From Chitinispirillum alkaliphilum (GTDB taxonomy: Bacteria; Fibrobacterota; Chitinivibrionia; Chitinivibrionales; Chitinispirillaceae): a stretch of DNA of 64,000 nucleotides. The position numbers and the translations under genes are program-made. Positions 11,563 through 33,621 of the stretch are shown here, piece after piece (positions within the stretch are counted from its first letter, which is position 1; every line of letters begins with the position of its first letter). The stretch lies in NCBI GenBank assembly GCA_001045525.1, contig LDWW01000002.1, positions 1 to 64,000 of the forward strand, read 5' to 3'. Under the pieces are notes generated by a model, which ran no database searches, was not told the origin of the DNA, and saw only the letters and a list, made by a program, of their open reading frames with translations.

Positions 11563-12360
11563 TCACCTTACAGAAAATGTTAACGAAGCGGTATATTTCT
11601 CCTCCAATGCCTGTCCTTCCAGTTCACCACGGGCAGGTCTGCGCACCGTTGCAAAAACAATCCAGCGCCCCGGATGCAGAAGCCTTACCACTCCGTTACC
11701 CCGACCGTCAGTTCTTGTACTGAACGCAAACTCTTCCTCTTCAGAAAACCCAACATAGGTTGCCTCTATCATACAGAACGATGCAGGCCTTCCGTTAAAG
11801 AGAACTTTAATGGGCAGATGATCTCCCACTTTGAGATTATAAGGATTTGTAACCGGTACGATTTCGATATTGTGACCAACAGGCTCGATGAAATCAGATT
11901 CATTTGTCTCTCCGGCACTAATAAGAGCTTTTGCATACTGTTCATAATAGAGGCTGACAATAACATTAGAAAGCCCCTCCATATTTCCCATCTTATGTTG
12001 AATCCGCTCCCCTTCTCTATACATTGTATAGAAACCCTTCTGAGTTGCACTGGTAACAGTGTAGGCACCGGATCCATTTAACATAAGAGGAGTGGCAAGA
12101 AACCCTCCTTCACCAGCTTCAATACTCTCTTCACCCTCTGGAGAAATCAATCTGAACTCTCTTACCTGCTCTCTTCTTAAAAAGTCATGAACAGGAAACA
12201 TATGCCCGTAACCAAAGTAAACAATTGTGTTGTATACATCTCTTGCACTCTCCGGGCGATACGTTGAGGCATTGAGCCAGAGACTGTGAGCAGAAACCAA
12301 TGATGGAATAATCATTAACAAGGAGACTATAAATGCTGTTTTGTGTGAACTCTTTCTCAT
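11563..12360 (-). CDS. Periplasmic DUF4198 protein, metal-binding type
   Basis: Exported protein of 265 residues with a clear signal peptide (FIVSLLMIIPSLVSA) followed by HSLWLNASTY, so the mature chain would begin with histidine. DUF4198 proteins such as NikK are periplasmic, accompany metal-uptake systems, and begin with a similar A-H-x-x-W-L pattern. Further histidines are in GYGHMFPVHDFL. The C-terminal ~90 residues look like an Ig-like beta-sandwich ending in TASLTFSVR. Here it probably binds iron or heme in the periplasm between HmuR/HmuY and HmuS. ATG 12360 has GAGGAAAAG just upstream; an in-frame earlier start is less likely. Confidence 0.75.
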   Translation of the reverse strand: MRKSSHKTAFIVSLLMIIPSLVSAHSLWLNASTYRPESARDVYNTIVYFGYGHMFPVHDFLRREQVREFRLISPEGEESIEAGEGGFLATPLMLNGSGAYTVTSATQKGFYTMYREGERIQHKMGNMEGLSNVIVSLYYEQYAKALISAGETNESDFIEPVGHNIEIVPVTNPYNLKVGDHLPIKVLFNGRPASFCMIEATYVGFSEEEEFAFSTRTDGRGNGVVRLLHPGRWIVFATVRRPARGELEGQALEEKYTASLTFSVR

Positions 12361-12391
12361 CTTTTCCTCAAGTATTGTTTGCATATTTTTA

Positions 12392-12422
12392 TGGTGCCAA
12401 ACAGATACTGTGTTTGGCACCA
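12392..12422 (-). promoter_or_regulatory. Perfect 12-bp hairpin behind hmuY
   Basis: TGGTGCCAAACA and TGTTTGGCACCA form a perfect stem with a 7-base loop directly after the hmuY stop. No T-run follows on the minus strand, so it is not a standard terminator. It is placed to protect a processed hmuR-hmuY message. Confidence 0.6.
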
Positions 12423-12429
12423 ACCTCAG

Positions 12430-13437
12430 TTATTTACTAAAAGTAGTTGCACCATCTGCCTGGTACAGATATTCAAAAATTGACCAGAACTGTTTGCGCG
12501 GATCATCATCTATGCTGTAGAATGTACCGATCTGGAATTTGGCATAGTTACCAGTAACAGTACGTACAACATAAGTGTTGTTCAACAGAGAGAATATTCT
12601 CGAGGCCTGGTCGAAAGCATACCATTCGTATCCAATAGTAAACAATTCATTAGAGAAGTTCAGCGCTGAAATATTTTCAACGTTATCAATTGATACGTCT
12701 TCGAGAACCGCAGCTTCAACCCCTCCTGCAGTGTTAAGCACTATTGAACTTCTCCCACCAGTCATGGTACCCATGGCAAATTCAGTGCGTCCGAATCTAA
12801 GATCCCACTGATCTTTTGGCGGGGCGAAATCGACCGCAGATTTGGTAGCCAGATTTATGTATACCATATCATAATCGCCAACAGGTCCAAAAGTCAGTTC
12901 TTCTGCGTCATCCTGGGAGGGTGTACCTATTTTCATTCTGACTCCCCCTGCCATTGTTGCACCTGTAAACTGCACCTTATAAACACTGTTATCATGGGTT
13001 TTAACCAGATAAATAGTATTGGTATATGAAGGAGGCATGGAGGAGAGATCCATCCATGAGCTACCGATGGGGTTGTTATCAGAATAAGTAGGAACGAATG
13101 ACACATCCTCCAAATCCGAAAAATCCGTACCAAAATCAGTCTCATTTGTTTTATGAACATGCACACCTGACCCATAATGACCAGAGTTAGTTACGATGTT
13201 AAAATCTTTATCAAAACCAAGGTGCCATACTGTACGGGGAAGAGAGGTTTTAGTCCCGGTAGCGAAGTGATAAAACACCACATTGTTGGCTCCCGTGTAA
13301 TCGACATCTATTGTATCAAGTGGATAGTCTACATTTTGTGTTCCTGGTCCCGTTACGGAACTATCAGTACACCCAAAGACCATCATCAACCCAATGACTA
13401 CCAGTGCTATACCCATGTAAAATATTGATTTACTCAT
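12430..13437 (-). CDS. hmuY: HmuY-family heme-binding lipoprotein
   Basis: Outer-membrane lipoprotein of 335 residues. The signal peptide ends in VFGC followed by TDSS, a lipobox. The beta-rich body carries the HmuY pattern VWHLGFDKDFNIVTNSG near residue 70 and a histidine-rich turn HYGSGVHVHK just after it, a plausible heme-ligand region. In Porphyromonas HmuY strips heme from host proteins and hands it to HmuR. The gene follows hmuR by 30 bases. ATG 13437 is chosen because AAGGGG lies eight bases before it. It is longer than the Porphyromonas protein, with a second half (KDQWDLRFGRTEF) that may repeat the fold; heme binding itself is inferred. Confidence 0.85.
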   Translation of the reverse strand: MSKSIFYMGIALVVIGLMMVFGCTDSSVTGPGTQNVDYPLDTIDVDYTGANNVVFYHFATGTKTSLPRTVWHLGFDKDFNIVTNSGHYGSGVHVHKTNETDFGTDFSDLEDVSFVPTYSDNNPIGSSWMDLSSMPPSYTNTIYLVKTHDNSVYKVQFTGATMAGGVRMKIGTPSQDDAEELTFGPVGDYDMVYINLATKSAVDFAPPKDQWDLRFGRTEFAMGTMTGGRSSIVLNTAGGVEAAVLEDVSIDNVENISALNFSNELFTIGYEWYAFDQASRIFSLLNNTYVVRTVTGNYAKFQIGTFYSIDDDPRKQFWSIFEYLYQADGATTFSK

Positions 13438-13467
13438 TTTCAAACCCCTTCAAATTATTTTTAGTTA

Positions 13468-15528
13468 TTAGAATACCTTGAAATTCATATCAAAGTTTGC
13501 ATAAACACTTCTTCCAAGTGTCTGACCCCAAAGTTCTTCTGTATTGTCAAAAAGATTATTTCCACCCAGTGCAAACCTTACATTTGGAGAGACCCTGACA
13601 GTTACAGATGCATTCATATCGAAATTGGATGGTCTGTAGGTATTTTCGGTTCTGCTGTAGAGCTGCTTATCACGCCATACCCCGGATACCATAAGAGTAG
13701 GGACAAAACGTTCTATGTCACCAAAGCGGTAGCTCAATGATTTCTTGAGAGTATGCGGAGAGGTGTTTAGCTCGTCAACCAACCTGCCATTTGCATCCCA
13801 GAACCGTCTCTGAAGATAGTTGTAGTCAAAAGTTATACGTGTGTCTCTACTTATTCGATAACCAATCGAGAAATCTGCACCCCGGGTGTAACCAGAGTCT
13901 GCATTTACATATTGACGAACCGCTTCATAAAACTCACCATCACTTGTTCTGCCAGTATCGGTGCTTACTTCCTGTGTGGTGATTTTATCATACATTTTAG
14001 TCCAGTGAGCAGTAGCTTCCCATTCAACATTATCCGATCCCACACCACCGATACTACCGTTTACACCCCGAGCTTTTTCCGGTTTGAGGTCAGGGTTTCC
14101 AGAGAGTACAAAAATTCCTCCTGTATGCACCCACTCATCACGGTAGTTATCCTGGTAACTTGGCGAACGATAGCCAAATCCTGCTGAGGCACGCAGATGT
14201 AAAAATTCAGATAAATTTGCCCTGGCACTGATCTTTGGAAGAATTACCGGATCGAAACGTGTGTTATAGGTAAATCTCATTCCAGGTGTAATCAAATACC
14301 GATCATCACCACCAATGTTTATTACATCCTGAACAAAAAGAGATATCTCTCCGGCACTCTTTCCGCCATCTTTTATGTACTCCGCCTTTAACCCGTCATA
14401 CTTGAAGTTTACTCCTGCAGTAACAACGTGTGATTGTCCCGGAGCCACATTTCCCCTCACTTCTGCCTCCATTTGAGGAAACTGTGTTATTTCCCTTTCG
14501 ATATACCTGTCGCTATCGTGACTGAATCGATCTCTTTTGTACACAGAGCGCTGAGCCGTGAAAAACCCACCCATGTCAATTTGATCAGACAACTCTTTTT
14601 GGGCAGCCACAGTAATATCAAATCGCTCATTTTTACTGTGAATCTCATCTGTATCTACCAGGGAATATTTTCTTTCATTATCACTGTAAGCACCTGATAC
14701 AGAAAGATCCATATCGAGAAATTGATCAGTGTTGATTTCCAACCGATAGTTTGTACGTAGTTGTTCCGGAATTGTGTAATAAGGCCTTTCAGGCCGAACC
14801 CGTGAAGGTTTAACTACATCTTTCACTCCGGGAGTATAGAAACTTCCAGCAGAAAAAGAGGCCCCCAGCATATCACTCATATGGCTTACCATAAGCCCTC
14901 CGGAAAATTGACCAGGCCACACATTTGACGTGCCCACCGGTCTGATAGGAGCAAACCCTGGTTCAGTAAACTGCGTTGATGTCAGGTTTGAATTATACCG
15001 CCCCCTCACACGCAGCTCCAGTGGAGAATTTGCACGATTCCGACGTGTAATAATATTTACCACTCCCCCAATCGCATCTGAACCATAGAGTGCAGAACCT
15101 ATCCCCTTAAGCACTTCAACGCGCTCGATTTCCATAAAGGGCAAGTTTTCAAGCGGAAAACCACCTACATACCCTCCGGTTAACGGAACGCCATTAATCA
15201 GCATCTTTGTATACTGCCCCCCCAACCCATTAATCTGTAGTTGAGAACGCCCCATCCCACTGACCACAGTCATACCAGGCTGTCTGTCAAAAAACTCCTC
15301 AGCGGTTGAAGCCCCCGATACAGCAAGATCCATTGAATCTATCACTGTCATATTTTCTGTAATATTGGTCATCTTCACTTCGGTTTTTGTACCCGTAACA
15401 ACCATTTCATCCAAAGTATGAATATTTTCTGCTGCCAAACAAACCTGAACGATCACAATGAGAATGCATACGGCTTTGACGGATAATCGCAGCAACCTGT
15501 GTGGAACACCTCCCACTGCTATTTGCAT
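13468..15528 (-). CDS. hmuR: TonB-dependent heme receptor HmuR
   Basis: Outer-membrane receptor of 686 residues. After a signal peptide ending near residue 33 comes a TonB box (DEMVVTGTK) at about 40-48. A plug domain follows, with RVEVLKGIGSALYGSDAIGG near residue 140, and then a 22-strand-type barrel ending in aromatic-rich NFDMNFKVF. Near residues 458-485 the motifs YRSP and NPDLKPE flank a histidine (DEWVHTGG), which is the FRAP/NPNL-with-histidine signature of heme and hemoglobin receptors. It imports heme delivered by HmuY, using TonB energy. AGGAGGGAG precedes ATG 15528, and a terminator-like hairpin lies immediately before that. Confidence 0.93.
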   Translation of the reverse strand: MQIAVGGVPHRLLRLSVKAVCILIVIVQVCLAAENIHTLDEMVVTGTKTEVKMTNITENMTVIDSMDLAVSGASTAEEFFDRQPGMTVVSGMGRSQLQINGLGGQYTKMLINGVPLTGGYVGGFPLENLPFMEIERVEVLKGIGSALYGSDAIGGVVNIITRRNRANSPLELRVRGRYNSNLTSTQFTEPGFAPIRPVGTSNVWPGQFSGGLMVSHMSDMLGASFSAGSFYTPGVKDVVKPSRVRPERPYYTIPEQLRTNYRLEINTDQFLDMDLSVSGAYSDNERKYSLVDTDEIHSKNERFDITVAAQKELSDQIDMGGFFTAQRSVYKRDRFSHDSDRYIEREITQFPQMEAEVRGNVAPGQSHVVTAGVNFKYDGLKAEYIKDGGKSAGEISLFVQDVINIGGDDRYLITPGMRFTYNTRFDPVILPKISARANLSEFLHLRASAGFGYRSPSYQDNYRDEWVHTGGIFVLSGNPDLKPEKARGVNGSIGGVGSDNVEWEATAHWTKMYDKITTQEVSTDTGRTSDGEFYEAVRQYVNADSGYTRGADFSIGYRISRDTRITFDYNYLQRRFWDANGRLVDELNTSPHTLKKSLSYRFGDIERFVPTLMVSGVWRDKQLYSRTENTYRPSNFDMNASVTVRVSPNVRFALGGNNLFDNTEELWGQTLGRSVYANFDMNFKVF

Positions 15529-16987: not shown

Positions 16988-19900
16988 ATGCCTGACCCAA
17001 ACCAAGCTAAAAACAGTCTCTGTGCATTGATTTTTATTCTGACATTTGTATTTTCAACGGGATCCGCCCTGGGAAATATCCTCTTCTCAGAAACGATCAC
17101 AGATTCAGCACACGCAGAATTCACCATTCAGCTCCAATCGTGGGGACGATACTCAATAATTGCTAAAAGCTCACGAGGGGCATCCATTGCAATTGTAGAC
17201 CGCAAGCAGGGGGTCATGGCCAGAAATGGAACAGCGGGAGAACACGATGGCAGAATCGATATATTTTTGGACGAGGGAGAGTATAAAATCTTCGTTATGG
17301 GAGTTTCCGGGGATTCAGAAGAGATAGAAATCGTAGTCAAGGAATTTACCTTTAATGATAACAGCAGCTCAACACTCCTTATACCCCAAAGACTTGAGAA
17401 GACCGAGTTAAGAGATTTCAATCAGACCGGCTGGTGGTTTGAAATAGAGGAAGACAATACGCCTTTTACATTCGAAATACAGGGACGAAATCTTCAGGAA
17501 ATAGCGCTGTTCAGGAATGGTGAATGGTTAACACCAACCAGATCGAATGATTTTTTAAATAATATCCAGCCAGAAAAACCTCTCCGGGGAAAAAGAATCA
17601 CCACTACTCTTAATAAGGGATTGTACCAGATTATCGCTTACGGAGGGCCTAATGATGGCTACACTCAGGAGGATGAAAAAAATCCCCTCTTTGCTCAATG
17701 GGGAGTGGAGAGCCTTGGCATGCGATCAAAAGTAAACCGCACTGTAGGCCCTTCCGGTTTGTCCCGTTTTCTGATACCTGGTAATCTCAGGACGGTTGTG
17801 CTCGAGACTCCTGAAATCACTCCGCTCTATCTTGAAGGTTTTAGCTGGAACCAAAATAACCCCAGATATAACCGGCTTGCCAGAGATTCAATTCACTCAC
17901 AATCATCCTCCCCGCGCACAGGTATTAACCTTAGTGGCTCAAACTCAAAAATTATCACTGTAAGCGGTAAACCGGGAACTCCTTTCACTCTTTCTACACT
18001 CGGTCAACAAGTCACACAAATTCTAAGCGACACAGCAAACTCATACTGGATCTCTTCACTACATACCGGAAACTACAGGGATCAGATAGGTGCTTCCGGA
18101 GCAGTTGTCAGAAGAAACGGAGAGCTCGTGGCCTTTCAGGCAGACACGGTTTCTTCACAAAAGCCCTTTTCACGCAGATTCAATCTTCTGGCTCCTGTTT
18201 CAGCCTACATATGGATAGATGAAGCCGGGACATACAGTGTCGAACCAGGCGGCGTAGCAATGGATTGGGTGATAAAACGTTATTATCTGAACTATCCCCG
18301 CTCTTATGTCACTCCGGAAAGTCAAACGGGCAAATCAGATGTCCAACTCAACCCGGGTCTTCACGTTCTTGAAATCACTCCCAGACAAAAGGGTATTGCA
18401 ACATTCTCAATCTCAGACCCAAATACCGACTTGGTCCCCGGCGAGTATTTGATACCCAGAGCAAATATTCAATTTCCAAATCTTCCCGTTTCACCCAACA
18501 GGACCTATCATATTGTGCTTAATTCCCAAGCACCGGAGCTATCAACGACTATAGCTCACCGCCTGCCCCTTACTCTGGATGAACCACTCTCTTTTTACAT
18601 AAGAGGTGGACAGAAGATATCAGTTCCAATCAGACTCTCAGAGCCGAAAGTAATCCGCGTTACAGATCCCAACGGAGTCACATTTAAAGAGGAACTTTTA
18701 AGATCTGGTGAACATGAAATTAGAGTGTCAGGTCCAGAAAACACCCATCTTACAATTGAGAAGATTGACCCATCTACCCATCCCAAAAAAACACAACCAC
18801 CCCAATTTAGCTATAGCAGGCTTGTCACCGAAGAGATGCTTAGTTTAGGCTCCAAGACGTTTTTCGATATGGAACAGAATTCAGAATCCGTTTACCTGTT
18901 CGATATATCAGAACCCGGCATTTACCGTTTGGAAACTGTCGGCCGTCTGCACACCACTCTTAAGGTTCGGGACCGGTTGAAGAAGTTTACCACCTCCAAT
19001 ACCGGAAGTGGAATCAACCGCAACGCATTGATCGTAGATTATTTTCTGCCGGGTCGTTATCAGGTTGTGGTGCGGACAGAGGGACGTTCTGCTGGACGAA
19101 CAGGATTGCTGCTCGACAAAAATGATCTTCATTATGGTGGAATACTGCAGCCTGGAGATGATAAAAGGATTATCACTTCCCCGTTCAGCTCGGTTTTTTA
19201 CGACTTTTCTGTTTCAACTACAGATAACTACCGATTCGAATCCTTTAACCGAAGCGGCAGTTTCGTATTACGACTGGAGGACGATGATGGGTGGCCTCTT
19301 CTGAGATATGGACACAGGGCTCCAGCTTTGACCAGACTAAAAGAAGGTAAATATCGACTCTTTTCTATGCCTGTGCCTTATGAAACGATAAGAATTACCC
19401 GATACGAGAAAATTCCCGAACCAGTCAGTTTTATAGGTAAAGGGCCACATCAGATATCTGTAAATCAGAGGGTTTCTGCAGTCTGGGTGGAAGATAAAAA
19501 AATCAGCGACTCCGCACAAAGCTTTGTTACATATCAATTTTCTACCCCAGCTCCGATCGAAGCTTCTCTTTCTGTGACGCCTGGTTTTATCGCAACCTTG
19601 AAATCACGCCAGAGCGATTCGGTTCTTCTCTCATATAAATACCCCACACAGGTTTTCCTTGAAAGCGGTGACTATGAGATTGCAATAAGACCGGTTAGAA
19701 GAAGTAACCACTCAGAATACCAATTTGCGGTTACCACAAATACACTGACAGCCGGTCTCGATTATCGGTTTACAGGCTCCAGAACATTCGATGTCAGTGT
19801 GGGCCAGTGCGGAGTTTATCGTTTTTTCAGCCAGGGAATGCATGATTATTCCGCTACCCTCCTTGCAGCGGACTCACTTACAAAGATTGCCTTCAACGAT

Positions 19901-22165
19901 AATGCCTACCTGGATTGGAACTTCAACATTTCACAATATCTCCCTTCAGGTAATTATCTCCTCAGAATCGAAAACGAAGAATCCAACACAAGGTCCTCAC
20001 GTGTCTTCATGCAAAACGTAAAAGACACACTGCTTGCACCTGTACATCTGGAACAAAACGGAACTGTATCTCTTTCTGTAAACCTTAACGGTAAACAGGC
20101 GGTAATGCCAATCCAGTTACCGGAAACTGGGGATATCCTGAGTATTTTGATCAGGGCAGGATCCAATGCTGCCTGTATGATTGAAATGCTCGACGGATCA
20201 GAATGGAGAATTGTAGGGGAACAGATTGGTTCACACATTGTTCTCACTACTCCTGTCAATGCAGATGGCTCCTACAGATTACGCCTGTGGTCTGAAGACC
20301 ACATTGATGAGCGTATGGAAATTGTGTGCAAATCAAGAACTGCCATTGCGGTTACCGCACAACAGGCTTTTAGCCGAATCAGGGGAAGCATCACTGAAGA
20401 TGATGACTTTACTGCCTGGTTTAAAATCGACCTTTCCGGAGAAGCGCCCTCCCATTATCGTCTCAGGACTGCAAGAAATACACTTTGCGAAGTCTCAAGC
20501 TCTCTTGAGTCAAACCAAATTTTAACTTCAGAGAATGAAATGTTTGTATCCGCCTTGGAAGGATACTTGTGGTTAGAAACAGTTTTTTTGCGAGCGGGCC
20601 GTTACAACTTTACCCTTGAACCCATGAAAATCAAGGAAAACCAACCTTTGAACATGGTATTTCACGACAACACTCCCCGATCGTTTAAATTTGATCATCC
20701 GGATAATTCTCTTGTTTTAATCACCACTGATATGGACCCACAATACCCTGTAGGGGGTATACTTACCAACAATTCGACCTCTGCATTTACCCGAAATGGT
20801 TTAAATGTAAAAAGGACGCTGCATTCAGAAATGAGCAGATGTGTCATAGCAGCTCTGCCGGGTGATTCAAACCGGGTCGTTTTATGGAACGCCAAAAACT
20901 CTTCCACAATAGGAGGATTCAACGCTACAATTACACTTCAAAGCAAAACCCTTGAAGATAAAGGTGTTCTAAAGAATGGCCTGACTTCCTGGTCTCCCCA
21001 AAAACCGGGAGCTGTACGATATGAAATTGACTCACTACATGCTCAGCTTCTTCAGCTTCGCTTGCCTGCAGGGTTCGGTGCAGTATTCGAAAAGACAGAC
21101 CGGTCACGTACTGTTTTCCCACCCCGGGAAGAAATTCTTTCCCTCATACTCGAGGCACAGGGCGGTTTTTTGATACTGTTCAGCGATACTGCAAACAGCA
21201 CTGTTACAGTTCAAAACTTCAGCACTCCGCAGATAGAAACAACTGATTTTCTCAGTTTGTCAGGAAATGAATCTGTAAAGATAGGTTTTAGAAATACTGC
21301 AACAGAATGGATACCTATTGATAGTGATCAGGAAGCAGAACACATACTTTACTGGAGTGGTTCCATTGAATCAGTCGATTATTTAAACAGTCAGGGACTC
21401 ATTACCCCTGATATAAAGGATGGAGAAATTCTCAATGTATCAGGCGGAGGGTTGTTGATAGATCATATGGCAGGCTGGGGTAAGATTGATCTTTGCAACT
21501 CCGGACTTGAAAGAGAATCGCTAATTGGCTGCCGGTGGGGTGAGACCCTTACACCTGACAACCCGGTTAGGATTAATCATACCTCAAGACTGCATCTGAA
21601 AGAGGGCACAAACTGGTTTACGATATCACTAAGTGATTCATCCCATATAAGACTAACAGCACCAGTACCCATCAGTGCAATACTCTTAAAAGAGGATACA
21701 CCATTCCAATTACAGGAAGCATGGGAAGGGTTAGACTGGGATCTCCCGCTTGAGCCCGGCACCTATATCTTAGGCTTAAAACAGCTTTCAGGTTATTCAC
21801 TCAATGGTATTGAACTCAGAGTTGCATATGACAACTTGGGTTTTACATCCGAAAGCGAACCCTATACTTCAACCCTGGCCCCCGGGGAAAGCAGACTGGT
21901 ACAATTTGAAATCGATAAATCTGGCAAATACGGGTTTGGTGTAGCAATGACCCATGAAACTGCCGATATAGAGATAAGCGACAAATTCGGAAATATTGCA
22001 GGTAGAGGAAAACAGATGTTTATTCAGTTAGAACCGGGTACATACTATCTTAGAATGAGAGTTCCTGAATTATCAAAAGGGACAGAATGTACAGTTTACA
22101 TTTTTGGACAGGAGCCACCTCCGGATCAGCCACCGGAAGATGTCATAAGGCGGATCATTGAGTAA
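16988..22165 (+). CDS. Giant secreted repeat protein, unrecognised
   Basis: Exported protein of 1,725 residues with a signal peptide (ALIFILTFVFSTGSALG). The rest appears almost entirely beta-structured with no membrane span. A recurring strand motif of the type L-x-x-G-x-Y-x-L occurs at least ten times (for example FLDEGEYKIFVMG, TLNKGLYQIIAYGG, FLPGRYQVVV, YLPSGNYLLRIENE, LEPGTYYLRMRV). It resembles the closing strand of PPC-like/jelly-roll sandwiches, so the protein is probably a string of about ten to fourteen such domains. The last residues are proline-rich. AGGAGAGG precedes the ATG. It lies 81 bases before the alpha-2-macroglobulin gene on the same strand, so the two are probably cotranscribed. 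I know no characterised family; a scaffold or surface partner of the macroglobulin is inferred. Confidence 0.75.
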   Translation: MPDPNQAKNSLCALIFILTFVFSTGSALGNILFSETITDSAHAEFTIQLQSWGRYSIIAKSSRGASIAIVDRKQGVMARNGTAGEHDGRIDIFLDEGEYKIFVMGVSGDSEEIEIVVKEFTFNDNSSSTLLIPQRLEKTELRDFNQTGWWFEIEEDNTPFTFEIQGRNLQEIALFRNGEWLTPTRSNDFLNNIQPEKPLRGKRITTTLNKGLYQIIAYGGPNDGYTQEDEKNPLFAQWGVESLGMRSKVNRTVGPSGLSRFLIPGNLRTVVLETPEITPLYLEGFSWNQNNPRYNRLARDSIHSQSSSPRTGINLSGSNSKIITVSGKPGTPFTLSTLGQQVTQILSDTANSYWISSLHTGNYRDQIGASGAVVRRNGELVAFQADTVSSQKPFSRRFNLLAPVSAYIWIDEAGTYSVEPGGVAMDWVIKRYYLNYPRSYVTPESQTGKSDVQLNPGLHVLEITPRQKGIATFSISDPNTDLVPGEYLIPRANIQFPNLPVSPNRTYHIVLNSQAPELSTTIAHRLPLTLDEPLSFYIRGGQKISVPIRLSEPKVIRVTDPNGVTFKEELLRSGEHEIRVSGPENTHLTIEKIDPSTHPKKTQPPQFSYSRLVTEEMLSLGSKTFFDMEQNSESVYLFDISEPGIYRLETVGRLHTTLKVRDRLKKFTTSNTGSGINRNALIVDYFLPGRYQVVVRTEGRSAGRTGLLLDKNDLHYGGILQPGDDKRIITSPFSSVFYDFSVSTTDNYRFESFNRSGSFVLRLEDDDGWPLLRYGHRAPALTRLKEGKYRLFSMPVPYETIRITRYEKIPEPVSFIGKGPHQISVNQRVSAVWVEDKKISDSAQSFVTYQFSTPAPIEASLSVTPGFIATLKSRQSDSVLLSYKYPTQVFLESGDYEIAIRPVRRSNHSEYQFAVTTNTLTAGLDYRFTGSRTFDVSVGQCGVYRFFSQGMHDYSATLLAADSLTKIAFNDNAYLDWNFNISQYLPSGNYLLRIENEESNTRSSRVFMQNVKDTLLAPVHLEQNGTVSLSVNLNGKQAVMPIQLPETGDILSILIRAGSNAACMIEMLDGSEWRIVGEQIGSHIVLTTPVNADGSYRLRLWSEDHIDERMEIVCKSRTAIAVTAQQAFSRIRGSITEDDDFTAWFKIDLSGEAPSHYRLRTARNTLCEVSSSLESNQILTSENEMFVSALEGYLWLETVFLRAGRYNFTLEPMKIKENQPLNMVFHDNTPRSFKFDHPDNSLVLITTDMDPQYPVGGILTNNSTSAFTRNGLNVKRTLHSEMSRCVIAALPGDSNRVVLWNAKNSSTIGGFNATITLQSKTLEDKGVLKNGLTSWSPQKPGAVRYEIDSLHAQLLQLRLPAGFGAVFEKTDRSRTVFPPREEILSLILEAQGGFLILFSDTANSTVTVQNFSTPQIETTDFLSLSGNESVKIGFRNTATEWIPIDSDQEAEHILYWSGSIESVDYLNSQGLITPDIKDGEILNVSGGGLLIDHMAGWGKIDLCNSGLERESLIGCRWGETLTPDNPVRINHTSRLHLKEGTNWFTISLSDSSHIRLTAPVPISAILLKEDTPFQLQEAWEGLDWDLPLEPGTYILGLKQLSGYSLNGIELRVAYDNLGFTSESEPYTSTLAPGESRLVQFEIDKSGKYGFGVAMTHETADIEISDKFGNIAGRGKQMFIQLEPGTYYLRMRVPELSKGTECTVYIFGQEPPPDQPPEDVIRRIIE

Positions 22166-22246: not shown

Positions 22247-25200
22247 ATGAGTACTATAAAGTCTAATTTTTTTAACTATACAAAGGTTATAAGCAGTATC
22301 TCTGTGATTTACAGAATATTTCGTCTGGCCCGCATCAGTCCTTTGTTTTTCCTTATGCTTCTTTGCAGCATCATTGCAAGGGATGCCTTCTCACAGCCTT
22401 ACTCCTACAGATCAGCAGACCGGGATCAGTTAAGAGCTGATGAAAACGTTAGAATTTTACCCTCTTTGTACCTGAGGGAATACGACCCTATAACAATATT
22501 TTTTGACAGAAATGTATTCAGAAATGCTCCCGGCCCACTCGATGAACCAGGTGACTATCTGAATATCACCCCCTTTCATCCGGGAGAATACCGTATTCTC
22601 GACAGAAGAACTCTGGAGTTTCGCCCAACTATTCCCTGGGAACCGCTTAAAACCTATACAATCAGATCAGCTAACACTTCACAGGAACTACAAACTTTGC
22701 TTTCTGTTCCTCGCAGTATAACACCGGAGCCAGGCAGTACAAATCTTGAAGAACTTGGCAGAATCGGGTTTGAGTTTTCCACAATGGTTGATACTTCAAT
22801 TCTCAGAGAACTGGTTACATTCACCGCCTGCCCTCTTCCCGGAATTGAGATGAATAAGTGTCCTGCACTCAGTCCATCTGATTTCAGAATAAAAATGTCA
22901 AACAACTCAGAAAACTCCTTTACATACTGGTTTATATTCAATACACCCTTTGGATATGGACAAAAAATACGAGCGATACTGAATCTTGCAAATCAGTCTG
23001 AACTAAATGATGCACAAAGGATATATTCCTTTGATACCCGCCCTGAGTTCTCAATCGATAAGGCTGGAACTTTCCACCAACTTTACAATTTCAGCACTGA
23101 CGGTGTTCACTATGATTCAAGACAGGCATTAAGGATCTCCGGCGAAGGGTCTATCGTTCTGGAATTTACTGCCCCCCCTGCTGATCCGGGTTTATCAGTC
23201 ATTAAAAGTCTTGTCAACTTCTCCCCCTCTCCGCCAAATTTTCAGTACACTATCGAGGGCAACCGAATACTTATCAAACCAGAACCTGAGACAGAGAGAC
23301 TCTACAAAGTCACTCTCAGACCAGTTCAAATGCAGGATCGTAACGGAAGAAACCTTCACATGCAGAATTCATCTTCGTTCTATGTGTACAAACCAGCGGC
23401 AAGTTCTTTTGTCCGGTGGCAAAGAGGATACGGTATCATAGAAACGCATGGTCCCCAACATTTCCCAGTCTCTATTCAGGGCCTGAACAACAATATAGAT
23501 CTGAGAATTTACAAAATCGATCCACTTCACAGAGCATTTCAGCCCTTTCCGAGTTCTCCGGTCATAGTAAATGAAGCATCACGTCCCCCTGGACCCGGTG
23601 AAGAACCGGTTGCATCAGAATCTATTATTAACCCGCTTGGCTCTCAGGAGATCGCCGCACATATTCAAATGCTTGGCAGTCCTCACGGTTCTGTAATTAT
23701 CGACTGTGAAAGAGAGGGGGTAAACAGGTTTGGCAGTATTGATCTGAGTTCTTTACTGGATTCTGCCGGCATGAGTAATAAATCAGGCACTTTCCTTATC
23801 GGCCTACGCACACTCGACGGTTCAAGTGAGAGATCATATGTACGGATTGACGTTACCGACCTTTGTCTTAGCACCGTAGAAGCGAAAAACAAAGTTTTGT
23901 TCACCGTCACCAGCTACTCTACTGGCAGACCTGTACCGGGAGCAAAAATTACAATCGAAGGTGTAATGAACAATAAACATGTGGTCATAGCTGATGGAAC
24001 AACCGGACGCGATGGAGTGTTTACATTGAATCACGATCCCGGTTTCCAGAATAAATTCAACAGAGCACTTATCAGAAGAATTATTGTCAGAAAAGAAGAT
24101 GATGTACTTGTACTGCCAACCAGATCTACCACTGCACCAAACGCATTTGTTAACAACCACTGGTATGGAAGACGCTCTGAGTGGCTTCAGTGGATTACTT
24201 CTGAAAGATACAGCGAGCAACAGGATCGGAAAATCCGAGCATTTATCCGCACAGAGAGGCCGTTATACAGGCCTGAGGACACGGTGTTTGTAAAAGGGTA
24301 TGTGAGAGAAACTTCCCGTGGTGAAATACTTTTTCCTTCTGAAAAAAACTACAGTCTTCAGATTACAAGCCCTTCGGGAGCCCGCTTCAATCACAAGGTC
24401 GAGCTCTCTGAACATGGCAGTTTCGACCTTCGGTTCAAAGAAGAAAATTTACCCACCGGACGATACAGGGTTTCACTTTTCAGAACGTGTGAAGAAGCCT
24501 CTAATGCTGTTGCAAATACTGATTTTGAAGTCGAAGCCTACAGACTACCCAGGTTTGAGATCATAATGAGTGGTCCAGATAAAGCTCCAAATGACAGACC
24601 TGCAGAGATCGGACTATCAGCCTCTTATTATGCGGGAGGAAGAGTTGTCGAGCAAAATGTAGACTGGCGTATCACCTCCTACCCCTACACATACCGCCCG
24701 GCTGGCATGGAGGGCTATATTCTTTCTTCCGACAGCAGATACGGAGCAGTGCGTCAGGAAAGCCAACAAGGCGTACTTCTGGAAACATCAAAAACAGATG
24801 ATAACGGCCAATCACAGATTACCATAAACCCTCAAACCTCAACAGACGGCAACCCACGCAGGTATATAGTTGAGGCCACTGTTACGGATGCGGATCAGCA
24901 AACAGTTTCAAACCGCCATTCGCTCATTACTTTACCACCCTTTATTCTGGGCTTGAAAACCGAGCGACATATAACATCCGGGACTGAAATATCGGCTGAT
25001 GTGATTGCACTGGATGTGAATGGAGAAATCACCCCGGAACAGAAAGTGAATGTCCAGCTCAAGCGCATGTCCTGGATATCCTACCTGACTGAAACCGATT
25101 TCTCACGTGGTTCCCCAAAATATGTGACAAACGAATCGGTTGATCTGGTTGCAGAGAAAGATATTGTGACCGGCGCAGAACCGGTAAACGTTGTCTTTCC

Positions 25201-28129
25201 AGATCAAACCCCTGGGGTTTACATTATAGAATTATCATCACGCGACAGACTGGGCAGGTTGCAAACAGTTAGAACCGATCTTTTCCTTGCAGGCAGCACC
25301 CCTGTAACCTGGAGTAAACCTGACCATCATGTTTTTGAAACAGTTACAGATCAGGCATACTATACCCCTGGTCAGAATGCAAAAATTTTGCTCAAGAGCC
25401 CTTACCAAAATGCAAGAGCTCTTGCGATAGTGGAACACCCCGATGGGGATCCGGTTTACGAATGGATGGACATACGTGATGGTCAGGGAACATTTACCCT
25501 CGCTGTTACACCGGAAATGACTCCGCGCATACCTGTTAGTTTTCTTCTCATGCGTCCGAGAATAGCCTCTCCCCAGCGAACACCCGATGGAGTACATGTA
25601 GACCCCGGAAAACCGGAAACTATGGCTAACACCACATTCCTTACAGTTAAACCGACTTCTTACATGCTTGATGTCAAACTGACACACGAGACTACCGTTC
25701 TGCCTGACGGTCAGCTGGAAATTGAAATCTCTCTGTCAGATATGAACGGTTCACCCAGAGCAGGCGAAGTGACACTTTGGCTCATTGACGAAGCAGTTTT
25801 ATCCCTAAGAAGAGAAAAATCCCTCGATCCGATCGAAGCATTCATAGAACCGGTACAATCTCATATCAGTATGCGTGACAGCCGCAACATGGCATTAGGG
25901 AATCTTCGCGTCCGGGAAACTCCAGGTGGTGACGGGATGCGTATGCTGAGGGCTCAAGAAACATTTGGAAAAGTTACTGTCAGAAAAAACTTCAAAACAG
26001 TCCCCTACTGGAACCCCTCAATATCAATCGGTAACAACGGTACTAAAACCGTTACTGTACAGATGCCTTCTGATCTCACTAATTTTGGTATCAGGGCAAT
26101 GGCAGTTTCGGAAGCTGACATGTTTGGGTTTGAGCGCTCGAGAGTCTCTGTTCGCCTGCCTGTGATCGTACAACCAGCGATGCCAAGATTTGTCAGACTG
26201 GGTGATAAATTCAGGGCTGGTGGGATTGGACGTGTCGTAGAGGGTGAAGGGGGCGAAGCCACATGGGGCATTGAATCAGAGGGTCTTAGAATAAACCAGT
26301 CCGGTGCAGCTCAGGTAACCCTTGACAATGCAAGACCTGTTCAGCTTTTTTCCGATGCTGAAGTTATAGTTCCAGATTTTGATCCTCAGGGAAATATGGA
26401 ATGGGATTCGGTATCAGTTAGAGTTTTCCTTATCAGAGATTCCGATAAAGCAGCAGATGCGTTTGAATTGAAGATTCCGCTATTACTTGACAGACCCTAT
26501 GTGGAAGAGAGCATGTTTTCAGAAATTCAAACTGACACTCCATTTACCTTCCCCGCTCTTCCTGAAAAGGCACGAAACAATACTGTATTCAATCAGCTAC
26601 TGATCAGTGACCGCCTGCAAATCCTTAATACCATATCTGCCATGACCTTACTTCTGAGATATCCTCATGAGTGCAGTGAAAGTCTGATATCCCAGGCTTA
26701 TCCAACTCTTTTATATCGTGATCTGTGGAATCAACTGGGAATAGAGCCTCCAGAAACCGAGTCATTGACAAAACTAATATCCAGGACAATTGAATATCTA
26801 TCCCGGACACAAAGAAGTGACGGATTGTTTGGATACTGGCCCGGTTCACGAGGCTATGTTCATCTCACCGCTTACGCAGTCGAGTTTTTAACCGAAGTAA
26901 AAAGAACTGAATCCGACTATCCTTTTGATGAGAGGATGTATGAACGTGCGATTGCTGCGCTGAAAAGATCACTTAGGACTGATTATACCAGATTTGTAAG
27001 CGGATATTCCTATTATGAGCGATCAAGCGCTCTTCTTGCCCTTGCAAAAGCCGGTCAACTTGATATCGGTTATGCCCGTGAACTGGCTGCAATGTCTCGT
27101 GAAGTTGACATCCAAAGCAGATCCAAAATCCTTCAGGCTTTGGCATCTAACCCAGAAGCTCTTTCAAAAGAATACAGCGCACTCGAAAACTCACTTTGGA
27201 ATCAGACTATGTTCAGGATGGAAGATGGCGAAGAAGTCTTTGCCGGATTACAGCAACGGGATATGCGCATTGGAGCACGGGTCCACGCAGATGAAATCAC
27301 AGCTCTCTCTGCAATGATCAGCGCACTTTCCAACACTAATGAGACAGATAAATTATCAAAAATGCTCAATCAACTGACGGTTCTTGGAAGCGATGGAGAT
27401 TGGGGGAATACATATGCTACCAGTATGGTTTTACTGGCACTTAGGGACAATGTCCAAACACAATCGTCCGGAAGCCAGGGTTCATTTGACTTTTTGCTGG
27501 GAGACGAGTCAGAAACGATTCTTTTTGACGGATCGAGTCCAACTGTTACAAAGATGTGGAGCGATGAGGATGGAGGCAGTGTAATCTTAACAGGGGAAAG
27601 GAATGGACAATTCTGGGCACGTCTGAACAGACGCTTTTTACCCCTTTCACCTGGAAGCGAAGCAGAGCCACAACAAAGAGGCTTTGTAGTGAAAAGATCA
27701 ATCTTGAGAATCACTGAAGGCCAATCACCCCAAAGGATACCTATTGAAAAAGGTGGGGATACAATCACCGTTTCTTCAGGAGATATTATCGAAGAACATA
27801 TACAGGTTGTCAATCCTGAGAAACGCCTTTTCACTGCCATATCTGTTCCTATTGCAGCAGGATTCGAACCAATGAACCCAAGGCTTGACAATGCAGAGCG
27901 CAATGCTCAACCGATGCACAGAAACAGTCATGAAGCAGATTACAGTGCATTTATGGATGATCAGGTGATCTTTTTCTTTGAAGAAATGGAAGCTGGAACT
28001 TACGATTTTTATTTCCGAGTGCGCGCAGTCACCGAAGGGGACTTTTCTCATCCGCCAGCACGAGCTGAAATGATGTATCAGATGGGAGTATATGGGTCAA
28101 GTGCTGGAACCAGGGTTGTCGTTGAGTGA
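22247..28129 (+). CDS. Bacterial alpha-2-macroglobulin with altered thioester motif
   Basis: Periplasmic protease-trapping protein of about 1,960 residues, in the large bacterial alpha-2-macroglobulin class (YfhM/YfaS). A hydrophobic signal ends near FSQPY. Family landmarks are TERPLYRPEDTVFVKGYV (MG-type domain), VTLWLIDEAVLSLRR, NFGIRAMAV, and a helical thioester-type domain. At the place where type I proteins have Y-P-x-x-C-x-E-Q, this one reads YPHECSES at about residue 1476: cysteine and glutamate stay but the thioester glutamine is serine, so a covalent thioester is unlikely. ATG 22247 follows AGGAGGAG at a ten-base distance; an earlier in-frame ATG at 22211 is less likely. It precedes pbpC by 31 bases, the known partnership for trapping proteases after wall damage. 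Confidence 0.92.
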   Translation: MSTIKSNFFNYTKVISSISVIYRIFRLARISPLFFLMLLCSIIARDAFSQPYSYRSADRDQLRADENVRILPSLYLREYDPITIFFDRNVFRNAPGPLDEPGDYLNITPFHPGEYRILDRRTLEFRPTIPWEPLKTYTIRSANTSQELQTLLSVPRSITPEPGSTNLEELGRIGFEFSTMVDTSILRELVTFTACPLPGIEMNKCPALSPSDFRIKMSNNSENSFTYWFIFNTPFGYGQKIRAILNLANQSELNDAQRIYSFDTRPEFSIDKAGTFHQLYNFSTDGVHYDSRQALRISGEGSIVLEFTAPPADPGLSVIKSLVNFSPSPPNFQYTIEGNRILIKPEPETERLYKVTLRPVQMQDRNGRNLHMQNSSSFYVYKPAASSFVRWQRGYGIIETHGPQHFPVSIQGLNNNIDLRIYKIDPLHRAFQPFPSSPVIVNEASRPPGPGEEPVASESIINPLGSQEIAAHIQMLGSPHGSVIIDCEREGVNRFGSIDLSSLLDSAGMSNKSGTFLIGLRTLDGSSERSYVRIDVTDLCLSTVEAKNKVLFTVTSYSTGRPVPGAKITIEGVMNNKHVVIADGTTGRDGVFTLNHDPGFQNKFNRALIRRIIVRKEDDVLVLPTRSTTAPNAFVNNHWYGRRSEWLQWITSERYSEQQDRKIRAFIRTERPLYRPEDTVFVKGYVRETSRGEILFPSEKNYSLQITSPSGARFNHKVELSEHGSFDLRFKEENLPTGRYRVSLFRTCEEASNAVANTDFEVEAYRLPRFEIIMSGPDKAPNDRPAEIGLSASYYAGGRVVEQNVDWRITSYPYTYRPAGMEGYILSSDSRYGAVRQESQQGVLLETSKTDDNGQSQITINPQTSTDGNPRRYIVEATVTDADQQTVSNRHSLITLPPFILGLKTERHITSGTEISADVIALDVNGEITPEQKVNVQLKRMSWISYLTETDFSRGSPKYVTNESVDLVAEKDIVTGAEPVNVVFPDQTPGVYIIELSSRDRLGRLQTVRTDLFLAGSTPVTWSKPDHHVFETVTDQAYYTPGQNAKILLKSPYQNARALAIVEHPDGDPVYEWMDIRDGQGTFTLAVTPEMTPRIPVSFLLMRPRIASPQRTPDGVHVDPGKPETMANTTFLTVKPTSYMLDVKLTHETTVLPDGQLEIEISLSDMNGSPRAGEVTLWLIDEAVLSLRREKSLDPIEAFIEPVQSHISMRDSRNMALGNLRVRETPGGDGMRMLRAQETFGKVTVRKNFKTVPYWNPSISIGNNGTKTVTVQMPSDLTNFGIRAMAVSEADMFGFERSRVSVRLPVIVQPAMPRFVRLGDKFRAGGIGRVVEGEGGEATWGIESEGLRINQSGAAQVTLDNARPVQLFSDAEVIVPDFDPQGNMEWDSVSVRVFLIRDSDKAADAFELKIPLLLDRPYVEESMFSEIQTDTPFTFPALPEKARNNTVFNQLLISDRLQILNTISAMTLLLRYPHECSESLISQAYPTLLYRDLWNQLGIEPPETESLTKLISRTIEYLSRTQRSDGLFGYWPGSRGYVHLTAYAVEFLTEVKRTESDYPFDERMYERAIAALKRSLRTDYTRFVSGYSYYERSSALLALAKAGQLDIGYARELAAMSREVDIQSRSKILQALASNPEALSKEYSALENSLWNQTMFRMEDGEEVFAGLQQRDMRIGARVHADEITALSAMISALSNTNETDKLSKMLNQLTVLGSDGDWGNTYATSMVLLALRDNVQTQSSGSQGSFDFLLGDESETILFDGSSPTVTKMWSDEDGGSVILTGERNGQFWARLNRRFLPLSPGSEAEPQQRGFVVKRSILRITEGQSPQRIPIEKGGDTITVSSGDIIEEHIQVVNPEKRLFTAISVPIAAGFEPMNPRLDNAERNAQPMHRNSHEADYSAFMDDQVIFFFEEMEAGTYDFYFRVRAVTEGDFSHPPARAEMMYQMGVYGSSAGTRVVVE

Positions 28130-28160
28130 GGAACGGTTTTAAAGATTAACCGTTATTGAA

Positions 28161-30647
28161 TTGAAAAAGATGTATAGAAAATACTTTTCAAAAAAAGAGA
28201 ATACCTTTCAACATTACTTGTTAAGGCAATATAATTTATGTACCTCCTTTGTATTCAGGAAGGGGTTTGACAAACCCGGTACTATCCTTAAGCTTTCAGC
28301 GGTATGTGTGTTGGTTATTCCTGTGATGGTAATATCCTTTGCCTTTTTCTTCAGTCTGTTTGACATTTATCAATACACACCCCGCCCTTCCTGGCTGCTT
28401 CTTGATCGCAATTATCAATTTGTTGCTGAAATAGAATCTCCTGACGGGCTTCTGGGCTACTGGCCAGTGCCCGATACTATTCCTCACAATATCCGCCTGG
28501 CAGTACTTGCCGCAGAGGATCACCGTTTTGACTCTCACATCGGCGTTGACCCCAAATCGGTTGTCAGGGCAGTTGTAAATAACTATTTCAAAAAAAAGGG
28601 CTACTCTGGAGCCTCGACCATAGGAATGCAAACCGCCAGACTTCAACGGGGTGGTGGAAGTTCATGGTTTTTGAAAATACGGGACACCTTCACCAGTATC
28701 TGGAGTACACTTATTTATGGCAGAGAACATATGCTTCGACGCTACCTTACCCTCGCACCATACGGTAACCGTATATCCGGTGTATCATACGCTTCCAGAA
28801 GATATTTTCTCAAACCAGTGGAAGATCTTAGCCTGGCAGAATCAGCACTGCTGGTCGCAGTGCCCCGTGCCCCGGGGAGAATGAACCTTTTCTCTCCTCG
28901 AGGATTCAATCTTGCAAAGCAAAGAGCGCACTTTATATTGAGGAGATGCTTAAGTTACGGATGGATCTCACAGGAAGAATTTTATCAGTCTCTCGTAGAG
29001 CTTGAAACATTTGTAAGGCCACGAAAAGAGCTCAGGGAGGAAGCAAACTTACACCTGATTTTATCATACAGGGACATTCTTCTGAATGACAAACAGCCGG
29101 ATTCTTCTCCCCTTCTGGTAACTACTATAGATGTGAACCTTCAACGCACATTACACGAAGAGATGTACACACATCTTGAAGAATTAAATAATCGTGATGT
29201 TGAAAATGGGGCTGCGATTATTATTGACCACAGTACCGGAGAAGTCCTTGCCTACTTAGGTTCCGGATCTTACTTCGGTTCAGGAAGCGGTGCAATTGAC
29301 CACGGTAATATTCTCAGGTCTACCGGAAGCCTTCTCAAGCCATTCATTTATGCTTTTGGAATGGAGGAGCTTGGCTTTACAGGGGCAACGATTCTTGATG
29401 ACATGAATTTTGATTTCGGTGCAGGCTCCAGCTCCTTTATACCCGAAAACTCCGACAGAAGTTTTCAAGGACCGGTACTTTACAAAAATGCGCTTGCAAA
29501 TAGTCGTAACATACCCGCAGTTGAGGTGTTGAATTCACTTGGCGTAAACAATACCTACAGACGCCTGTCAGATTTTGCTCTGGCTGAGGATGATGGTAGG
29601 GGTGAACACTATGGACTTGGACTCTCCATAGGTACTCTATACACCACGTTGCGTTCAATTTCTCAGGCATATCTGACATTTCCAAACCAGGGAAAATCAA
29701 AAACCCTTGTCTGGTTTAGAGACCAACCACAACAGTCTCAACAACAGCTCCTTTCAGCCGATATTGCTTTGATGATTCAGCGATACCTCGCTGAGCCCAT
29801 GGCACGGGTCCCAACCTTCCCAAGAGGTGGCTTTTTCGAGTATCCGTTTTCGGTTGCAGTTAAAACGGGAACCTCTGATGGATATCGTGATGCCTGGTGT
29901 ATAGCCTGGAGTGATACTTACCTTGTGGGTGTATGGTTTGGAAATGCTGATAACCATCCTACACATGAAATTGGCGGATATAAAGGTGCTGCTCCGTTAG
30001 TAAAGGATGTATTTACCAGACTTCATCCTGAACGCATGGATGGTCTTGATGATATCCTGTTTCCTCCTCCCCCGGACTACATACCTGTATCTGTTTGCAG
30101 GCTTACAGGACTTAGGGCCGACCGCTCCTCTCCATTTATTACAGAGGTGTATTTCAAACCCGGAACCGACCCTCAGGAGTATAGTGATGTGAGCAGAATC
30201 CTCTCTATTGACAGCAGAAACGGACTTCTTGCTCTTCCCGGATGCAACCATAAGTACATAGTGCACCGCCCGTTTTTACTGCTTCCTCCCAAATACCGAA
30301 ATTGGGCCCAAAACCAGGGATTGGCCATTCCTCCCACAGAGTACTCTCCATTGTGCCAGGGTAGCATCATGGTGGAAGAGTACAGCCTGAATATAACCTC
30401 ACCACGTTCAGGTTCCCGGTTTTTTATTGATCCGGAAATGCCTCCCGGTCACTCCAATTTACAAGTGCATTGCCTTGTATCACCCGGAGTGCCAGAGCTT
30501 ATCTGGTTTGTTAACGGGGAAGAATATACCATAACAAACCCTCCCCACAATCTTAAATGGCCAATGAAAAGGGGACGTTACAACTTTAAAGCTGCAGTAC
30601 CAGGGACCCCTGCAATGACAGAAACAATAACTATTGAAGTATTTTGA
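28161..30647 (+). CDS. pbpC: Penicillin-binding protein 1C
   Basis: Bifunctional peptidoglycan synthase of 828 residues anchored by one helix (about residues 45-70). The GT51 glycosyltransferase domain shows AAEDHRFDSHIGVD near 118 and GASTIGMQTARL near 150. The transpeptidase has SLLK (within STGSLLKPF) near residue 390, SRN near 450 and KTGTS near 573. A C-terminal PBP1C-type domain of about 90 residues (SPRSGSRFFIDPE) marks it as PbpC rather than PBP1A. The start is unclear: TTG 28161 or ATG 28170, both without a good ribosome site. It is the last gene of the macroglobulin operon. PbpC proteins pair with macroglobulins, probably repairing the wall at sites of attack. Confidence 0.95.
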   Translation: MKKMYRKYFSKKENTFQHYLLRQYNLCTSFVFRKGFDKPGTILKLSAVCVLVIPVMVISFAFFFSLFDIYQYTPRPSWLLLDRNYQFVAEIESPDGLLGYWPVPDTIPHNIRLAVLAAEDHRFDSHIGVDPKSVVRAVVNNYFKKKGYSGASTIGMQTARLQRGGGSSWFLKIRDTFTSIWSTLIYGREHMLRRYLTLAPYGNRISGVSYASRRYFLKPVEDLSLAESALLVAVPRAPGRMNLFSPRGFNLAKQRAHFILRRCLSYGWISQEEFYQSLVELETFVRPRKELREEANLHLILSYRDILLNDKQPDSSPLLVTTIDVNLQRTLHEEMYTHLEELNNRDVENGAAIIIDHSTGEVLAYLGSGSYFGSGSGAIDHGNILRSTGSLLKPFIYAFGMEELGFTGATILDDMNFDFGAGSSSFIPENSDRSFQGPVLYKNALANSRNIPAVEVLNSLGVNNTYRRLSDFALAEDDGRGEHYGLGLSIGTLYTTLRSISQAYLTFPNQGKSKTLVWFRDQPQQSQQQLLSADIALMIQRYLAEPMARVPTFPRGGFFEYPFSVAVKTGTSDGYRDAWCIAWSDTYLVGVWFGNADNHPTHEIGGYKGAAPLVKDVFTRLHPERMDGLDDILFPPPPDYIPVSVCRLTGLRADRSSPFITEVYFKPGTDPQEYSDVSRILSIDSRNGLLALPGCNHKYIVHRPFLLLPPKYRNWAQNQGLAIPPTEYSPLCQGSIMVEEYSLNITSPRSGSRFFIDPEMPPGHSNLQVHCLVSPGVPELIWFVNGEEYTITNPPHNLKWPMKRGRYNFKAAVPGTPAMTETITIEVF

Positions 30648-32947: not shown

Positions 32948-32985
32948 TAAAACCTCCGTTTGTTAATTGTTAGATGTGTGTGTGA

Positions 32986-33615
32986 TTAACTTAAAACCGA
33001 TTCCGGTGCCTCGATACCTTTATATAAAGCACCATTTTTAGTTACAATAAGTACCTTCTGTGATTGTGAAAACTCAGCATCTTTCTCCTGTGGTTCTATG
33101 AGTATATAATGAGTCAGTCCAAACCTGTCCTTAAGCTTGGCCTCAGCAGGATTACCCGCCTTTGCTTTGCCTCTAATAATCTGTGCTACCTGACCAACGA
33201 AAGCATCTTCAGAAACAGCTGAAGTTTCCTCTTTCAGAAGATGCTTGGAGAGAAAACAAGAAGTGTAATGTAGAGCAGGTATGCTTACAAGTACTGGAAT
33301 GGGTACTGCCAGAAACCATGGTAGAAAAAACCCGAACATACGGTTTACAATCGATTGTATAAGTATTCCAGTCAGACCAAAAACCGCAAGAAAAAACAAC
33401 AACAGAATAATAAAGGGAACCTTCCCCACACCAAGCCAACCCAGGAATGTAGGGTTAGGGGAAGAAAGATTCACCTCTCCGATGCAGGCATCCAGCACGG
33501 TTTCCAACCCGATACCACAAAGAAGAGAAACAATCTCCAGCATAGTAATAAAGACCATAACGGTAAGCGCCACAGTAAAGAGAAGATTGTCACTTACCAG
33601 CAGTAGCTCTAACAT
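32986..33615 (-). CDS. yqiJ: YqiJ-like membrane protein with C-terminal OB-fold
   Basis: Membrane protein of 209 residues with helices at about 10-32, 65-90 and 95-115. A soluble C-terminal domain (DAFVGQVAQIIRGKAKAGNPAEAKL) resembles the NfeD/YqiJ OB-fold. Such proteins partner with flotillins, here the adjacent YqiK, possibly controlling its assembly or turnover. It lies six bases after pspA and 38 bases before yqiK. The N-terminal part has the acidic loop typical of YqiJ (GIGLETVLDACIG). Assignment rests on architecture and neighbourhood. Confidence 0.8.
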   Translation of the reverse strand: MLELLLVSDNLLFTVALTVMVFITMLEIVSLLCGIGLETVLDACIGEVNLSSPNPTFLGWLGVGKVPFIILLLFFLAVFGLTGILIQSIVNRMFGFFLPWFLAVPIPVLVSIPALHYTSCFLSKHLLKEETSAVSEDAFVGQVAQIIRGKAKAGNPAEAKLKDRFGLTHYILIEPQEKDAEFSQSQKVLIVTKNGALYKGIEAPESVLS

Positions 33616-33621
33616 GTCAGA

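Follow-up and report, generated by a model that had tools for sequence, protein, structure and literature searches.

A conserved multi-domain protein encoded beside alpha-2-macroglobulin and pbpC as a candidate third component of their module

Results

A gene for a large exported protein precedes A2M and pbpC

The window analysed here, a stretch of 64,000 nucleotides from Chitinispirillum alkaliphilum, carries on its forward strand the genes of a giant beta-domain protein (BDP), an alpha-2-macroglobulin (A2M) and a PbpC (Table 1). The BDP open reading frame starts with an ATG, with AGGAG as ribosome-binding site 8-10 nt upstream, and this start, the frame and the signal peptide confirmed the 1,725-residue exported protein proposed in an earlier sequence-only reading. 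We looked in its sequence for a lipobox, a transmembrane helix or another obvious anchor and saw none. The same reading had placed BDP 81 bases before the macroglobulin. This distance is correct if A2M starts at the ATG at 22247, and we adopted that start because it carries the ribosome-binding site AGGAGGAG. The MG2, bMG3, bait region, A2M and bMG10 domains of the macroglobulin exceeded their Pfam cut-offs. It is directly followed by pbpC, whose product scored 457 bits against NCBIfam PBP1C, just under the equivalog cut-off of 494, and window 22247-30647 thus has the type I gene order.

Other genes flank these three on the reverse strand. Flotillin, YqiJ/NfeD-like and PspA-family genes lie in a row at 31085-34299 (-), converging on pbpC, and form a membrane-stress cluster. 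Divergent from BDP, genes for a TonB-dependent receptor, an HmuY-family lipoprotein (PF14064) and a DUF4198 protein at 11563-15528 (-) make up a likely haem-uptake cluster, and a CobN-type chelatase of 1,559 aa is encoded at 3218-7897 (-). Promoter- and terminator-like sites were no commoner than in shuffled sequence and were left unused.

Table 1. Position of BDP, A2M, PbpC and their sub-features in the window
Feature	Position	Strand	Remarks
BDP	16988..22165	+	1,725 aa, exported, about 16 tandem beta-sandwich domains (predicted); known families cover none
BDP N-terminal signal peptide, no lipobox	16988..17074	+	judged by eye from the sequence
BDP domain 1, residues 30-122	17075..17353	+	conserved; repeat family
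BDP domains 6 and 7, residues 614-812	18827..19423	+	among the best conserved
BDP domain 9, residues 918-1012, PPC-like	19739..20023	+	conserved D976-W977-N978
BDP domain 16 and proline-rich tail, residues 1613-1725	21824..22162	+	part fused to A2M in G004
A2M of the BDP-linked clade	22247..28129	+	signal peptide, no lipobox (pattern search); mechanical ORF from 22211
A2M bait-region domain	25343..25807	+	PF07703
A2M thioester site, C-S-E-S in place of C-x-E-Q	26672..26683	+	alignment
PbpC, PBP1C-like transglycosylase/transpeptidase with BiPBP_C domain	28161..30647	+	Pfam, NCBIfam

BDP is predicted to be a chain of jelly-roll domains

Searches of Pfam, NCBIfam and the PDB with the single BDP sequence and with a 16-member profile returned no family, which bears out its description as a protein outside known families. 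Pfam and NCBIfam gave no carbohydrate-active catalytic domain either, which speaks against the known polysaccharide enzyme that the earlier reading had allowed for. Matches to T9SS sorting tails (Por_Secre_tail, CHU_C) were dropped since they fell in mid-protein and not at the C-terminus. The L-x-x-G-x-Y motif, at least ten copies of which had been announced, occurs exactly ten times, whereas 5,000 shuffles of the protein averaged 0.41 copies and never exceeded 4; the looser pattern [LIVF]xxGx[YF] is less striking (11 copies for 2.6 expected).

We built two AlphaFold2 models of BDP, each from an alignment of only 11 sequences. Both are almost all beta (residues 28-639: mean pLDDT 81.4, pTM 0.74; residues 613-1725: mean pLDDT 83.9, pTM 0.55), and structure prediction, which had been advised for counting and classifying the domains, thus describes BDP as a chain of about 16 jelly-roll beta-sandwich domains, several of which appear to be diverged repeats; the division into 16 segments was made by eye. 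CUB domains, the ColG collagen-binding domain s3a-s3b and other jelly-rolls were among the best foldseek matches of the models, with low TM-scores because many-domain chains were compared, so that on these predictions the class of fold is settled and the function of BDP is not. Comparison with viral models gave generic jelly-roll matches only. Profile-profile comparison related segments 1, 6, 7, 8, 9, 15 and 16 and parts of 4 and 5 to one another, the best pair being 6-9 at 97% probability in single-pair comparisons run without a null control.

Conservation is uneven along the chain. Across 30 sequences domains 1, 2, 6, 7, 9 and 16 are the best conserved, with Y646, E649, R663, R678, N679, R762, D765 and W769 invariant or nearly so in domains 6-7, while no position reaches 90% conservation in domains 10-13 and 15. 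The window BDP itself was unmatched by the Pfam PPC family (PF04151); in the ortholog L116, a region apparently equivalent to domain 9 scored 31.5 bits for a cut-off of 25.9, and the ortholog L084 fell narrowly under it with 25.5 bits.

BDP is linked to A2M in at least three phyla

Searches of whole genomes detected BDP in 37 of them: 15 Fibrobacterota, 2 Spirochaetota, 1 genome labelled KSB1 and 19 of the 396 Acidobacteriota sampled. In 29 of the 37 (nine Fibrobacterota, two Spirochaetota and 18 Acidobacteriota) it is the gene immediately upstream of A2M, with both on one strand, and the misgiving that its homologues might rarely be near macroglobulin genes did not hold. In G412 both genes stand at contig ends; five genomes from a single genus and the one labelled KSB1 have both, but apart. 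At 10 of 27 loci BDP and A2M share a 4-bp overlap, which suggests translational coupling. BDP adjoins A2M also at L203, L204, L207 and L208, where pbpC is absent downstream within the available sequence. BDP is a conserved third gene beside A2M and pbpC in at least three bacterial phyla. At two loci of one genus (L071 and L072, in G010 and G015) BDP has moved elsewhere and large genes lie between A2M and pbpC; these inserts encode 923 and 939 aa, and a lipoprotein-like one occurs in both. Eight weak matches in Acidobacteriota and five matches in Spirochaetota, covering about 30-110 of the 1,759 profile positions, were left out of the BDP count; they look like single PPC-type domains.

The BDP profile had no match next to yfhM or yfaS of E. 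coli or next to 24 unlinked A2M loci, and in E. coli K-12 the neighbours of the yfhM-pbpC pair are ndk and, divergently oriented, sseA. The statement that this known pair lacks such a partner thus proved right.

BDP co-occurs with a single A2M clade

Among the 396 Acidobacteriota, the genomes carrying an A2M of this clade, defined by E below 1e-200 against a profile of BDP-linked A2Ms, are exactly the 19 with a full BDP (19/19). Clade members score at least 1,569 bits, and the other A2Ms of the BDP-carrier genomes at most 468 bits. Likewise, 12 of 61 relatives have a BDP sequence, and exactly these 12 (12/12) also encode a close relative of the A2M, taken as a protein with at least about 40% identity. 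G001 belongs to the window's genus but carries neither of the two. Raw odds of co-occurrence overstate this evidence since the genomes are related, but presence is patchy nonetheless. A tree of 55 A2Ms gathered the BDP-linked proteins, those encoded apart from BDP and a BDP-A2M fusion in one clade (SH-aLRT 100, branch 0.99) that contains none of the 23 other A2Ms.

The fusion, found in G004, is one natural in-frame ORF of 1,250 aa (L040:8147-11899). It joins a signal peptide to the final ~107 BDP residues and to residues 276-1315 of A2M, and it lacks both the TED and MG10. This arrangement of the coding sequence suggests that the BDP C-terminus belongs beside A2M. The fused protein evolves fast, with a branch of 0.82 in the A2M tree compared to 0.12-0.16 for its nearest relatives; given this long branch and the missing TED, it may be a decaying remnant left by deletion.

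Most BDP-linked A2Ms carry no lipid-anchor signal

With a loose lipobox rule, written after a first strict pattern had given few matches in either group, only 2 of 30 BDP-linked A2Ms were lipobox-like, compared to 11 of 23 unlinked ones (Fisher p = 0.0009). Of the unlinked A2Ms that lie beside pbpC, 7 of 9 are lipobox-like (Fisher p 0.00008). Both positive linked proteins also have a plausible ordinary cleavage site. Judged by these patterns, BDP-linked A2Ms mostly appear to do without the lipid-anchor signal that is common in other pbpC-linked A2Ms.

All 30 linked relatives in which the site is legible have the thioester motif C-x-E-Q. The window A2M reads CSES there and has lost the Gln needed for a thioester; the fused G004 protein has no C-x-E-Q site. 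In three A2M paralogs of the window genome (L234, L235 and L236) the site reads SSEH, SSES and SSEQ, the Cys being gone as well. Every A2M of that genome for which we read the site thus lacks an intact thioester; a fourth paralog, L237, falls outside the alignment.

BDP diverges faster than its neighbours

Mean distances between systems are 2.06 for BDP, 1.14 for A2M and 1.11 for PbpC, indicating faster divergence of BDP. In a mirror-tree comparison of 25 rows, which represent 24 distinct systems as one row is counted twice, BDP distances correlated with those of A2M (r = 0.90) and of PbpC (r = 0.93), so that A2M is not singled out. The partial correlation was 0.20 between BDP and A2M given PbpC and 0.56 between BDP and PbpC given A2M. 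These correlations do not decide which of the two BDP contacts.

Discussion

The presumed task of bacterial macroglobulins is to protect the periplasm against proteases, and accounts of type I present it as a two-gene system made of a lipoprotein A2M and PBP1C. The A2Ms of the clade described here mostly have no anchor and always come with BDP, from which we infer that BDP holds or stabilises A2M. We propose a variant A2M/PbpC module in which BDP serves as the dedicated third component and acts in the periplasm on the anchor-less A2M, and we give this proposal an even chance. It builds on the observed gene linkage, exact co-occurrence, single A2M clade, domain make-up and scarcity of lipoboxes, on the G004 fusion and on MagB as a precedent; contact between the proteins, the tether or stabiliser role and the periplasmic location are our inference. 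BDP and A2M would be exported from one operon. In the periplasm, BDP would serve as a long partner with many domains, of which the C-terminal one, together with the tail, probably binds A2M, and the conserved front ones (1-2, 6-7 and 9) probably bind PbpC, peptidoglycan or the membrane. In this way BDP would hold and stabilise an A2M that does without the lipid anchor of E. coli YfhM. By analogy with other A2Ms, an intruding protease that cuts the bait region would be caught at the wall, with PbpC repairing the peptidoglycan. The scaffold role suggested for BDP in the sequence-only reading is compatible with this evidence. What counts against a tether is that BDP, having neither lipobox nor transmembrane helix, would itself need another binding partner. 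The mirror-tree result, the six genomes in which BDP and A2M are apart, the doubtful status of the fused protein and the lipobox rule loosened after the first pattern also weigh against the proposal.

BDP could instead be an envelope adhesin or glycan-binding protein that is co-regulated with the A2M module to defend one and the same surface and makes no direct contact with A2M. PPC- and CBD-like jelly rolls of other proteins bind collagen or polysaccharide, and the resemblance of the BDP folds to ColG collagen-binding domains, CUB and other binding jelly-rolls, the Pfam PPC assignment in L116 and the fast divergence of BDP all agree with such a role. However, BDP matches no known carbohydrate-binding family, its foldseek jelly-roll matches are generic, and its exact co-occurrence with one A2M clade together with the 4-bp overlaps argues for an obligate partner; we hold the adhesin to be possible but rather doubtful. 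Were BDP mainly a partner of PbpC in peptidoglycan synthesis or repair, and not of A2M, the higher partial correlation with PbpC would be accounted for, but the four loci with BDP and A2M that have no pbpC following in the available sequence, and the other A2M-pbpC pairs that manage without BDP, make this unlikely.

The remaining readings give BDP an active part in defence. As a recognition or targeting subunit it would bring a thioester A2M to particular proteases or surfaces for a complement-like covalent deposition. The thioester motif kept in all readable BDP-linked A2Ms except that of the window, and the fast evolution of a long array of binding-type domains, point that way; the window A2M, which has lost its thioester, nevertheless retains BDP, and we consider targeting improbable. 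An elaboration of this idea, in which the three proteins form a complement-like device where BDP recognises a surface or an intruder and positions a free A2M with a thioester so that it attaches covalently while PbpC repairs the wall, seems to us equally improbable. Finally, BDP had been suggested as a protease bait, a second or sacrificial substrate. Although BDP is large, exported and variable, A2M has a bait-region domain of its own, the compact beta domains predicted for BDP, with few low-confidence stretches, would make a poor bait, and we found nothing in favour of this role, which is very improbable.

A search of open-licence papers for a macroglobulin or PbpC partner like BDP found no description, which is weak evidence of absence; BDP appears to be a hitherto undescribed part of this envelope-protection system. 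A third, exactly co-occurring component and an A2M mostly free of an anchor suggest that this system is built differently. BDP thereby becomes a concrete partner to test for holding or aiming an anchor-less A2M, and a large protein family outside all databases gains a name and a neighbourhood.

Individual BDP domains share with PPC and clostridial collagen-binding domains the jelly-roll fold, as predicted, and the L-x-x-G-x-Y closing strand, but BDP strings together about 16 domains and carries no protease. The A2M of type II Mag/Yfa systems, MagD, has neither lipobox nor transmembrane segment and depends on MagB both for its attachment to the inner membrane and for its stability (PMC5764988). 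An anchor-less A2M made with operon partners (MagA, MagB and MagF for MagD) is common to both systems, and the job of MagB is like that proposed here for BDP. However, the two proteins are unrelated, MagB has a transmembrane helix and BDP none, and BDP-linked A2Ms are of type I. The E. coli yfa operon encodes DUF2138, DUF1175, DUF2300 and DUF2135 proteins, with no pbpC in the stretch read; none of these families was matched in Pfam searches, and the yfa proteins of E. coli gave no match to the BDP profile. The closest relative is the type I A2M-PBP1C system, in which the anchor of the E. coli A2M (yfhM) places it at the inner membrane, beside PBP1C (pbpC) (PMC4498604). Both have A2M followed by pbpC, a bait region, MG domains and, in the readable linked relatives, C-x-E-Q, from which the window copy departs by the loss of its thioester. 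BDP systems differ by their conserved additional upstream gene, an A2M mostly without lipobox and a separate A2M clade. The BDP system is thus a variant of the known A2M-PBP1C system and not a new kind of system.
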